Below are positions 12,401 to 16,190 of a stretch of 33,635 nucleotides of DNA, in pieces. The number at the start of each line of letters is the position of its first letter. The first letter of the stretch is position 1. Made by a program: the position numbers and the translations under genes. The notes under the pieces were generated by a model that saw only the letters and a list, made by a program, of their open reading frames with translations, searched no databases and had not been told where the DNA came from. The stretch comes from Syntrophaceae bacterium (GTDB lineage: Bacteria > Desulfobacterota > Syntrophia > Syntrophales > UBA5619): NCBI GenBank assembly GCA_003141195.1, contig PLLC01000045.1, positions 1 to 33,635 of the forward strand, written 5' to 3'.

Positions 12401-13225
12401 ATGAAATTCGGCATCTGCAACGAGCTGTTCGAGAACTGGCCGTGGGAAAAGCTTTGCGATTTTGTGCGCTCAGTTGGCTACCAGGGCATCGAGGTGGCGC
12501 CCTTCACGCTGGCCGACCGCGCGGAAGGAATCACACAGCAGCGGCGGGCGGCGCTGCGCGAATCGGCCGGATCACGGGGGCTGGAGATTATCGGCCTGCA
12601 CTGGCTGTTAACGAAACCGCCGAGGCTTTACATCACACACCCGGATTCGGGTATCCGAAGGGAAACGGCCCGGTATTTCGCGGAACTCGTCGGCCTCTGC
12701 GCGGACCTGGGGGGAAAGGTGATGGTGATCGGTTCGCCGAAGCAGCGGAGCTTGCTGCCCGGCGTGAGGCGCGAGCAGGCGATGGGGTACGCGGCGGAAG
12801 TCTTCACGCCCTGCCTGGAGTCCGCGGCAGAGCGCGGCGTGACGCTCGCGATCGAGCCCCTCAGCACGCGCGAAACCGATTTTCTCACATGCGCCGCCGA
12901 TGCCGTGGAGCTGATCGAGCGGATCAACCACACCAATTTCCGTCTGCAACTGGATGTCAAGGCCATGAGCTATGAGTACAAGCCGATCCCGCAGATCATC
13001 CTGGAATCGGCAAGGCACCTGGCCCACTTCCACGTCAACGACCCCAATCTGCTGGGGCCGGGCATGGGTAAGATCCGCTATGAACCGATCATCGCGGCCC
13101 TGCGCGAAGCGGGATACGACGGGTGGCTCTCCGTCGAGGCCTTCGATTTTGGCTACGGGGCCCGGGAGATCGCCAGAAAGAGCGAGGTCTACCTGAAGCG
13201 GGTCATGGCCTACTCTTCAAAATAG
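12401..13225 (+). CDS. Sugar phosphate isomerase/epimerase-like TIM barrel
   Basis: 274 residues of the AP-endonuclease-2/xylose-isomerase-like fold. Metal-ligand positions are visible on successive strands: E in LAIEPLS, D in LQLDVKAM, H in AHFHVNDPN and E in LSVEAFDF. These enzymes isomerise, epimerise or dehydrate keto-sugars and cyclitols. The start at 12401 has AGGGAAAGG upstream; a frame reading from 12257 overlaps the SDR and is not supported. It is the last gene of the operon, and its end overlaps the convergent IclR gene by nine bases. Confidence 0.85.
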   Translation: MKFGICNELFENWPWEKLCDFVRSVGYQGIEVAPFTLADRAEGITQQRRAALRESAGSRGLEIIGLHWLLTKPPRLYITHPDSGIRRETARYFAELVGLCADLGGKVMVIGSPKQRSLLPGVRREQAMGYAAEVFTPCLESAAERGVTLAIEPLSTRETDFLTCAADAVELIERINHTNFRLQLDVKAMSYEYKPIPQIILESARHLAHFHVNDPNLLGPGMGKIRYEPIIAALREAGYDGWLSVEAFDFGYGAREIARKSEVYLKRVMAYSSK

Positions 13226-13978
13226 TTTCATACAAATCCGTTGTGAAATTGACTCTGCGGTTTGCAGAACAAGCACTCGGATTTCCTCTCTCTTTGTTCT
13301 ACTCATTCTTTGTTTTGGAACGCTCACGCTAATAGCTGCAATGATGGTCCCGCTGCTATCTTTAATAGGGGCGGCCAAGCATTGAACCCCCTCGTGACAC
13401 TCCCCGTCATCGAAAGCATAACCCTGCTTTTTGATCTTTCTCACTTCTTTTAACAATTCGGATATATTGAAAATAGTTTTATTTGTTAATCGTACAAGAG
13501 GTGTACGACCAAAAGTTCCTAATAGCTCCTCCTCCGTCATATTAGAGATGAGCATTTTCCCTAGGGAGGATCCATGAACTGGAGCTCTTCCACCGACTTG
13601 CGTGCCTATAGTTAAGGCTCGGCTTCGCCCTCTTTTCTCAAGGGACACAACTTCGTTCTTGTCTAAAACTCCCAAATGAACTATTTCATCCGTCTGTTTC
13701 GCCAGTTCATCTAAAAAAGGAATTGCTGCAACTCTAATATCGAAATACCTACTCATTACAGCATTCCCAAGTTTAAGCAACTTCCAACTTAAACTATACG
13801 TTTTGTTTGATTCATTTTTTTCAAGGTAACCCGCCGATGAAAGCGACGCAAGGATCCGCGAGACAGTGCTTTTATCTAGGCATGCTTGTCGACTGATGTC
13901 CGTAACCCTCAATTCAGTATCTGCTGTACCGAAGACATCAAGTATTTTGTATAATTTTTTTAGAGATGAAAGAGTCAT
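13217..13978 (-). CDS. IclR-family transcriptional regulator
   Basis: 253 residues with an N-terminal winged helix-turn-helix (about 5-65; the ITDISRQA-like segment and DKSTVSRILASL form the recognition region) and a C-terminal effector-binding domain (ECHEGVQCLAAPIKDSSG). IclR proteins such as KdgR commonly control uronate and aromatic-acid catabolism. The gene is visibly more AT-rich than its neighbours, which suggests separate acquisition. Its upstream region contains one arm of a 96-bp inverted repeat whose other arm is the promoter region of the aldehyde dehydrogenase, so it probably regulates itself and that gene in parallel. The ribosome-binding site is weak (GGTGA). Confidence 0.92.
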   Translation of the reverse strand: MTLSSLKKLYKILDVFGTADTELRVTDISRQACLDKSTVSRILASLSSAGYLEKNESNKTYSLSWKLLKLGNAVMSRYFDIRVAAIPFLDELAKQTDEIVHLGVLDKNEVVSLEKRGRSRALTIGTQVGGRAPVHGSSLGKMLISNMTEEELLGTFGRTPLVRLTNKTIFNISELLKEVRKIKKQGYAFDDGECHEGVQCLAAPIKDSSGTIIAAISVSVPKQRMSRTKREEIRVLVLQTAESISQRICMKLF

Positions 13979-14003
13979 CTTTTGTCACCATAAAGTTAGT
14001 CTG

Positions 14004-14099
14004 CCCAACCCATTTTTATACTAACGATGTTCTCATTATAGACAACTATGTTGAATATTGTGATTCATACTAATTCCGCTATAATAAATTTGTCAAGAA
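14004..14099 (-). repeat. 96-bp inverted repeat, left arm (IclR promoter region)
   Basis: This arm is the reverse complement of 14660-14755, with two mismatches by eye. On the minus strand it carries TTGACA (14096-14091), then TAGTAT after 18 bases (14072-14067), and further down a perfect TATAAT. It ends 25 bases before the IclR start and therefore acts as the IclR promoter/operator region. It contains a GAAT-N6-ATTC dyad that could be a regulator site. Confidence 0.9.
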
Positions 14100-14179
14100 T
14101 AAATTTACTCGGTTTCACGAGCAGATGATATGTCCGGTTATGTAGCCCAAAAGGCAGCAATACGCAAAAGAATCAATAA

Positions 14180-14597
14180 AATACATATTGCATAGCCACG
14201 GAAAATCACAATTATCTGAAATATTTCTATCATGTTTTGGTGAAGGAGATCAAGCCACGGCTCCGCGAGATTCTGATGGAGTTATGCGAGTGGCTGGATA
14301 TCACGGTTATAGAAGGTGCGATATGCCAGGATCATGTGCATATGTATTTATCGGTACCGCCGAAGCACTCTCCGGCGTTCGTGATGAAGATGCTGAAGGG
14401 GAAAAGCGTGGAGTATCTGCGTAAGGAGTTTCCGGAATTAGGGAAAAAGTACTGGGGCCTGCATATCTGGGCACGAGGGTATTTCGTCAGTACCGTGTGC
14501 ATCAACAGCACCGTGATACAGAAATCATGTGAAAGAGCAATCAGAGGAACAAATTCGAGAAGAACAGCCTAGGCTATGGAATGACAACAGCAAATGA
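14180..14597 (+). pseudogene. Decayed IS200/IS605-type TnpA (Y1 transposase)
   Basis: The readable core starts at a TTG codon at 14237 (VKEIKPRLREIL) and includes the metal-binding HUH motif DHVHMYLSVPP and the conserved YWGLHIWARGYF segment. The normal N-terminal 30 or so residues are missing or unrecognisable between the stop at 14177 and 14237. Near 14526 one extra C breaks the frame; removing it restores an ending VKEQSEEQIREEQPRLWN typical of the family and turns the disrupted codon into TAT. By family alignment that is the expected catalytic tyrosine near the C-terminus. The element is therefore dead. It lies exactly between the two promoter repeats. Confidence 0.85.
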
Positions 14598-14615
14598 CAT
14601 TGTCCGGAGTTGTCG

Positions 14616-14645
14616 TCATTGAACAAAGCCACCGACAAGGTCGAT
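14616..14645 (+). other. Probable right-end hairpin of the IS200-type remnant
   Basis: CCACCGAC, an AAG loop and GTCGATGG form an imperfect eight-pair stem shortly after the transposase remnant. IS200/IS605 elements carry subterminal hairpins like this that TnpA recognises. The assignment is by position and shape only; the exact end cannot be set. Confidence 0.35.
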
Positions 14646-14659
14646 GGTAGTTTACTATT

Positions 14660-14755
14660 TTCTTGACAAATGTATTTTAGCGGAATTAGTATGAATCACA
14701 ATATTCAACATAGTTGTCTATAATGAGAACATCGTTAGTATAAAAATGGGTTGGG
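14660..14755 (+). repeat. 96-bp inverted repeat, right arm (aldehyde dehydrogenase promoter region)
   Basis: Reverse complement of 14004-14099 with about 94 of 96 positions matching by eye. On the plus strand it has TTGACA at 14663-14668 with TAGTAT 18 bases on (14687-14692), and a perfect TATAAT at 14719-14724 that lacks a good -35 box. The repeat stops 13 bases before the aldehyde dehydrogenase start. Whichever promoter is used, both arms should drive their flanking gene in the same manner. Confidence 0.9.
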
Positions 14756-14768
14756 TAGAGGAGGAGAT

Positions 14769-16190
14769 ATGGCTAAGGTACTGACAGAGGAAGAAAAAAA
14801 GCTTGCCCAGGAAATGTTGGTGCGGGCTAAGAAAGCGATGAAGGCGATCGAACACTACGACCAGAAGCAGGTCGACCGGTTATGCCAAGCGGTCGGTTGG
14901 CAGATCGGCAACGAGAAAAACGCCATCCAGTTGACCAACATGGCAGTCGATGAAAGCGACATTGGAGACCGGGCGCCGACCCGACGCTTCAAGGTTCTGG
15001 GTATCCTCAGGGACGCCCTCCGCCAGAAGAGCATGGGGATCATCGAGGAGATTCCCGAGAAGGGGATCACCAAGTATGCCAAGCCCGCCGGGATCGTCTG
15101 CGCGCTAATACCGACAACCAACCCCATTAATACCCCCATGGGAATCGCCATTTACGCCATTAAATGCAAAGATGCCGTGATTTTTGGGCCTCATCCGTCC
15201 AGCAAGAAGAGCACCAATGAAGCCGTGCGCCTGATGCGCAAGGCGCTCAGGAAGGCGGGTGCGCCAGAGGACCTTCTCCAATGCGTCGCGCAGCCGAGTA
15301 TCCCGATGGCGCAGAAATTGATGTCTATCTGCGATTTGACTGTAGCCACGGGCGGCGGACCGATGGTGAAGGCTGCCTACAGTTCCGGCAAACCGGCCCT
15401 TGGCGTGGGACCTGGAAACTCAACAATGGTGATCGATGAAACGGCGGATGTCGAGCAAGCGGCGAGGAACACCCGCGAGAGCAAGACCAACGACAACGGT
15501 TCCGGCTGTTCAGCGGACGGAAACCTCGTAGTCCATGAATCCATCTACGATCGGTTTCTGGAGCGGCTCCAGAAAGAAGGCGGATACCTTTGCTCCGATG
15601 CGGAGAAGGAACTGGTCAGGAAAGTGTGGTGGGATGATGAGGGACATCGAATCTCAAAAACGGTTGCCCGTCCGGCATGGAAAGTCGGTGAAATGGCCGG
15701 TTTCAAGCTTCCCGAGGGCAAGACGTTCCTCATCGTTAAGGAGGATAATATTGGCAAGGAGCATTTGTTCTCGGGTGAAAAACTTGGCACCATGCTGGCG
15801 ATTTTCAAATACAGCGGCGAATTCGAGGTGGCCCTGGACATGGTACGCCAGATCTACGATGTCGGCGGGAAGGGCCATTCATGCGGCATCTACTCCTTCA
15901 ATGACGACCACATCCACCGTTTGGCGCTGGTGGCCCCCGTCTGCCGTATGATGGTCAGACAGGCCCAGTCTAAGGCCAATGCGGGATCCTTCACCAACGG
16001 CATGCCGATGACCGGTAGCCTAGGTTGCGGTTACTGGGGCGGTAATGCTACCTGCGAGAACATCCATCTCAAGCATTACATGAATGTGACTTGGGTCAGC
16101 AGACCGATCCCGGAGGATAGACCTTCAGAACAGGAACTCTTCGGTGAGTTTTACAACAGCGAAATTTTCGAAGTCGGTCGTGATGACTGA
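14769..16190 (+). CDS. CoA-acylating aldehyde dehydrogenase
   Basis: 473 residues, matching single-domain acylating dehydrogenases (EutE, SauS, AdhE N-terminal half). The motifs PTTNPINTP, GVGPGNSTMVIDETAD and the catalytic C247 in NDNGSGCSADGN are present. It should convert an aldehyde plus CoA and NAD(P) to the acyl-CoA. The start at 14769 (MAKVL) has GAGGAGG upstream; an upstream TTG reading adds only six residues. It is the first gene after the right arm of the promoter repeat and, with the TPP lyase downstream, would take the aldehyde that the lyase produces. The aldehyde is not identifiable; sulfoacetaldehyde, a semialdehyde or glycolaldehyde-type substrates are possible. Confidence 0.9.
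   Translation: MAKVLTEEEKKLAQEMLVRAKKAMKAIEHYDQKQVDRLCQAVGWQIGNEKNAIQLTNMAVDESDIGDRAPTRRFKVLGILRDALRQKSMGIIEEIPEKGITKYAKPAGIVCALIPTTNPINTPMGIAIYAIKCKDAVIFGPHPSSKKSTNEAVRLMRKALRKAGAPEDLLQCVAQPSIPMAQKLMSICDLTVATGGGPMVKAAYSSGKPALGVGPGNSTMVIDETADVEQAARNTRESKTNDNGSGCSADGNLVVHESIYDRFLERLQKEGGYLCSDAEKELVRKVWWDDEGHRISKTVARPAWKVGEMAGFKLPEGKTFLIVKEDNIGKEHLFSGEKLGTMLAIFKYSGEFEVALDMVRQIYDVGGKGHSCGIYSFNDDHIHRLALVAPVCRMMVRQAQSKANAGSFTNGMPMTGSLGCGYWGGNATCENIHLKHYMNVTWVSRPIPEDRPSEQELFGEFYNSEIFEVGRDD

Follow-up and report, generated by a model that had tools for sequence, protein, structure and literature searches.

An inverted repeat of the iclR promoter region, probably duplicated in front of a catabolic operon, with insertion-sequence remnants at its centre

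In the 33,635-nt stretch of Syntrophaceae DNA that we analysed (the window), the divergent genes for an IclR-family regulator and a CoA-acylating aldehyde dehydrogenase are separated by an inverted duplication of a promoter region, which is well preserved, holds insertion sequences in its middle and would represent a testable route of regulon rewiring. The left arm, corresponding to the promoter region of iclR (14000–14099, minus strand), and the right arm, its inverted copy (14660–14759, plus strand), are identical as reverse complements at 97 of 100 positions. Each arm adjoins the leader of one gene, iclR on one side and the aldehyde dehydrogenase operon on the other, and the right arm extends as far as the Shine-Dalgarno sequence that precedes the enzyme gene. 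The three mismatches are found at 14003, 14082 and 14087, two of them in the spacer between the -35 and -10 hexamers and one at 3 nt from the outer end of the arm, and the promoter hexamers and the dyad of the arms are untouched by them. A previous reading of this DNA from the sequence alone (the sequence-only reading) had described a 96-bp inverted repeat with about two mismatches, lying just upstream of iclR and of the aldehyde dehydrogenase gene, and had named exact alignment of the arms as a check. The alignment bears out both the placement and the high identity, with two mismatches in the 96-bp core, and shows that the true arms are 100 bp long, with three.

This pair of arms is the only one of its kind in the window, and in single-stranded form the inverted-repeat DNA folds better than its shuffles (z = -15), which rules out a chance occurrence. 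As control, about 1.5 Mb of DNA was scanned for inverted repeats. This comprised loci totalling 1.14 Mb, almost all of them in other genomes, where the same kind of scan gave no inverted repeat with arms of at least 50 bp, and 371 kb of the same genome, where the next-best inverted repeat has arms of only 31 bp at 90% identity.

The regulator gene, iclR (13217–13978, minus strand, with the ATG at 13978), codes for a protein of 253 amino acids that has both the N-terminal winged-helix domain HTH_IclR (PF09339, 6.7e-13, 48.6 bits against a cut-off of 22) and the C-terminal effector domain IclR_C (PF01614, 4.6e-44, 150.5 bits against a cut-off of 24), and thus belongs to the IclR family. The nearest NCBIfam models are PcaR/PcaU, BhcR and KdgR, all of them scoring under their cut-offs. 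A close orthologue of this protein accompanied by its promoter was not found, the best match having 46% identity, and from its base composition iclR looks horizontally acquired. The gene is part of an A+T-rich segment of about 1.5 kb (13217–14759, 30–47% GC in a window of 56% GC), which has tight borders at the stop codon of a TIM-barrel gene (ending at 13225) and at the Shine-Dalgarno sequence that precedes the aldehyde dehydrogenase. An iclR gene is also found just upstream of a related aldehyde dehydrogenase, in the same orientation, at three loci (L078, L102 and L113) from two Chloroflexi MAGs and one Spirochaetaceae MAG, and the pairing of regulator and enzyme therefore recurs.

The aldehyde dehydrogenase gene (14769–16190, plus strand) is the first of a catabolic operon-like run that also includes an OYE-type flavoenzyme, a TIM-barrel isomerase, a TPP enzyme and an ABC transporter. 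Its best NCBIfam match is AcylSulfactDhSauS (1.2e-136), with 456 bits against an equivalog cut-off of 600 bits, so that we do not identify it as the acylating sulfoacetaldehyde dehydrogenase SauS but as a member of a related family. In many phyla, relatives of this enzyme have a TPP enzyme as neighbour, frequently together with TRAP transporters. Its nearest relatives (83–87% identity), which come from an uncultured Syntrophobacterales MAG and a Deltaproteobacteria MAG, have upstream DNA that is unrelated to the arm except for the Shine-Dalgarno sequence. This divergence is compatible with a breakpoint at that position, without proving it, since the Shine-Dalgarno sequence is conserved by function.

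On the outward strand of both arms there is a TTGACA-N18-TAGTAT element (14096–14067 in the left arm, 14663–14692 in the right arm) followed downstream by a TATAAT (14040–14035 and 14719–14724), the hexamers being identical between arms; the -35 sequence upstream of TATAAT is poor (ATCACA). Both arms also contain, 3' of TAGTAT, the dyad TGAAT-N6-ATTCA (14052–14067 and 14692–14707). The sequence-only reading had pointed to TTGACA/TAGTAT, TATAAT and the dyad (as GAAT-N6-ATTC) in both copies, and their presence stands. As an operator the dyad is a candidate without statistical distinction: shuffled arms give one such dyad each, which makes its presence in an arm a chance expectation, and the genome has seven occurrences, two in the arms and five elsewhere. 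The leader common to both arms was searched for structured RNA and gave no Rfam match. In the upstream DNA of other IclR genes, read by eye, seven out of ten show a TTGACN promoter with an inverted repeat between it and the gene (L133, L134, L135, L020, L023, L025 and L038; examples are GTTTCATAATGTGATAC and GTTTCGCAATGCGAAAC). Because this layout is shared, the arm fits the arrangement of an autoregulated iclR promoter, with an operator whose identity we infer.

The 560-bp spacer between the arms is composed of two mobile-element remnants and about 62 unassigned nt. After the unique flank TAAATTTACTCGG (14100–14112) comes the left-end remnant of an insertion sequence (14113–14152, plus strand), which has 77–87% identity over 38–54 nt to element ends at three loci (L125, L126 and L127) of two relatives; the intact copies of this element encode a helix-turn-helix transposase, with an HTH_29 domain in that of L127. 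The following 62 nt or so (14153–14214) have no convincing match to the 5' part of an IS200-type element. What remains (14215–14655, plus strand) comes from the 3' part of an IS200/IS605-type element and has 88% DNA identity to an intact copy from another genus of the family (L008). Its transposase matches Y1_Tnp (7.4e-25) over profile positions 22–107 only, and keeps the HVH motif, but the N-terminus is gone and a 1-nt insertion (frameshift) removes the segment with the catalytic tyrosine, so this is a dead remnant of the IS200/IS605 family rather than a complete Y1 HUH transposase. Thus, the dead IS200-type transposase of the sequence-only reading is present, although it does not fill the whole spacer as had been proposed, since 14113–14152 derive from another kind of insertion sequence and some 62 nt have no assignment.

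The right end of the IS200-type element is intact, with a subterminal hairpin, CCACCGACAAGGTCGATGGTAGTTTAC, followed by GTTTAC in the same location as in the relatives, and it stops at 14655, at the same base as their right ends and 4 nt from the right arm. The element has no terminal inverted repeats, which is a trait of the IS200/IS605 family. Its differences from the intact copy are distributed over the three codon positions as 7, 7 and 25, and because most of them (25 of 39) are at third positions, the element diverged mainly while functional; this sequence pattern suggests that it probably died recently. Short non-autonomous elements of MITE-like type, in which the two IS200-type ends enclose little or nothing of a transposase gene, are present in the same genome and in a relative (L144 at G000:C3, near 1600–1786, and L128 at G024:C36, 487–722).

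Fusing the left flank, taken to 14108, to the right flank, which starts at 14656, reconstructs an empty site of 244 nt, in which the arms surround a 13-nt centre and the only TTTAC on either strand sits in this centre, within the unique flank. With the left flank extended to 14112, where the first remnant starts, the centre has 17 nt. As reconstructed from the sequence, the site without the mobile-element DNA and the stretch of about 62 nt is an interrupted palindrome, with arms 13–17 nt apart. An interrupted palindrome studied in Escherichia coli, with 111-bp repeats and a 24-bp centre, forms hairpins on the lagging-strand template and is tolerated in recombination-proficient cells (PMC4245961), and the lagging-strand template is the insertion target of IS200/IS605 elements (PMC6006769). 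As both processes involve the same template, insertion at or near the exposed apex is an attractive possibility. It is not demonstrated, because the left end of the element is lost and the left flanks of its relatives are of the form TTANC (TTAAC, TTAGC and TTACC), a poor fit to TTTAC, and for the same reason we do not claim TTTAC as the exact target site.

The explanation that we favour, and consider probable, is that the iclR promoter was duplicated by fold-back in front of the enzyme operon and that mobile elements subsequently inserted at the apex or close to it. In this scenario, a fold-back or template switch would have made an inverted copy of the core promoter and leader of the IclR-type regulator, which most likely arrived with the A+T-rich iclR gene, and would have fused this copy directly to the Shine-Dalgarno sequence in front of the aldehyde dehydrogenase operon. 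Each gene would then have a copy of the one promoter to itself, driving transcription outward. The product would be a near-perfect interrupted palindrome with 100-bp arms and a centre of 13–17 nt, in which mobile elements, at least one of them a single-strand transposon of the IS200/IS605 type, may have landed at or near the apex and decayed to the present 560-bp spacer. The sequence directly shows the two arms with their identity, their placement before both genes, their copy number and the make-up of most of the spacer, whereas we infer the copying direction and the order of events, as well as promoter activity and co-regulation by IclR. Since the ancestral state, either single-arm or empty, was not found in any relative (the closest iclR has 46% identity, and the nearest aldehyde dehydrogenases, at 83–87%, are unrelated upstream), the copying direction rests on base composition and promoter layout. 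The GC content of the arms (30%), of iclR (41.5%) and of the aldehyde dehydrogenase gene (55%), in a window of 55.8% GC where the other gaps checked have 43–51%, suggests that the promoter arrived together with iclR. Both the small divergence of the arms, at three differences per 100 bp, and the recent death of the element point to a young duplication, unless the arms were homogenised. The recent inverted duplication or gene conversion proposed in the sequence-only reading agrees with the 97% identity, with the lack of other copies and with the dead element lying between the arms.

The opposite order of events is unlikely in our view. In that case the insertion-sequence remnants were already beside iclR and a later template switch copied the promoter past them, so that no close palindrome ever existed. 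Inverted segments can be copied at a distance by template switching, and the start of the right arm at 4 nt past the right end of the IS200-type element is a possible breakpoint. However, this order requires a coincidence, in that the copy breakpoint must lie no more than 4 nt from the end of the element, whereas both close boundaries follow together from an insertion into a short apex. Similarly, we give little weight to an old duplication whose arms have been kept alike by gene conversion, by template switching between the arms or by selection for an operator in common. The arms do have identical promoter motifs, and template switching is known to homogenise the arms of inverted repeats (PMC8604942), but three differences in 100 bp need no special upkeep if the event was recent, and the intervening element likewise seems to have died recently.

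It is highly improbable that a mobile element of the fold-back type inserted between the two genes and that the arms are its long terminal inverted repeats, even though long inverted repeats flanking a transposase remnant resemble a transposon. The sequence-only reading had raised against itself the case of the arms being ends of an element present elsewhere. The search for it was negative: the arm sequence has two copies in its own genome, which are the two arms, it is absent from 155 genomes of the order and has no match in the PLSDB plasmids, and its 23-nt core has no exact match in the IMG/VR viral contigs. Furthermore, no target-site duplication is visible, as the outer flanks have no direct repeat in common, and IS200/IS605 elements do not have such long terminal repeats. 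Thus, on the genomes, plasmids and viral contigs searched, we rejected a transposon with the arms as its ends. Least credible of all is an assembly artefact of this metagenome-derived contig, which would be conceivable in a draft genome of 108 contigs whose nearest named relatives are MAGs, inverted repeats being prone to misassembly, but a chimera normally yields identical arms and a mirrored flank, whereas these arms differ at three positions, are flanked differently at either side and have unique DNA between them.

Under the favoured explanation, a fold-back duplication followed by insertion, iclR and the enzyme operon would plausibly be driven by one promoter sequence and respond to one regulator, IclR, in line with the common signal that the sequence-only reading had predicted for them. 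The suggestion that the arms could be inverted by recombination turns out to have no regulatory consequence: the promoters sit inside the arms and point outward, and therefore inversion of the spacer leaves each gene with its same promoter. A phase switch or invertible promoter was rejected, as this geometry speaks against it and no live recombinase, only the dead Y1 transposase, lies between the arms.

The usual picture of regulon rewiring is that a point mutation makes a new operator, or that a promoter is brought in by an insertion sequence. Copying an entire promoter with its leader, in mirror image, to the exact front of another operon would be a single-step route, and its signature of two outward, near-identical promoters around a short centre can be searched for in all genomes. 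More speculatively, fold-back copying of a regulator's promoter-operator may be a one-step mode of operon recruitment in which the apex attracts single-strand transposons that spread and stabilise the arms. If such transposons do prefer these apices, palindrome instability would be linked to transposon target choice; if the arms are inactive, the locus would be merely the scar of a local rearrangement.

Divergent regulator/target regions normally have two unrelated promoters around a shared operator. As in the divergent intergenic regions of the IclR family, here iclR diverges from its likely target with sigma-70-like promoters in between, but in contrast to them the two promoters are 100-bp mirror copies of each other. 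Like invertible promoters of phase variation, the locus has inverted repeats around a short segment near promoters, but there is no live recombinase, the promoters are in the repeats and directed outward, and inversion changes nothing. With IS608 and ISDra2, of the IS200/IS605 family, the element shares the Y1 transposase, the subterminal hairpin at the right end and the absence of terminal inverted repeats; in this case, however, the copy is dead, its left end is gone and, on present evidence, it is a passenger and not the author of the structure. The 246-bp lacZ palindrome of E. coli (PMC4245961, PMC3315005) likewise has arms of about 100–111 bp and a short asymmetric centre, as does this site once the insertion-sequence DNA is removed, whereas the palindrome described here is natural, is located at a promoter and has its centre filled by dead insertion-sequence DNA.
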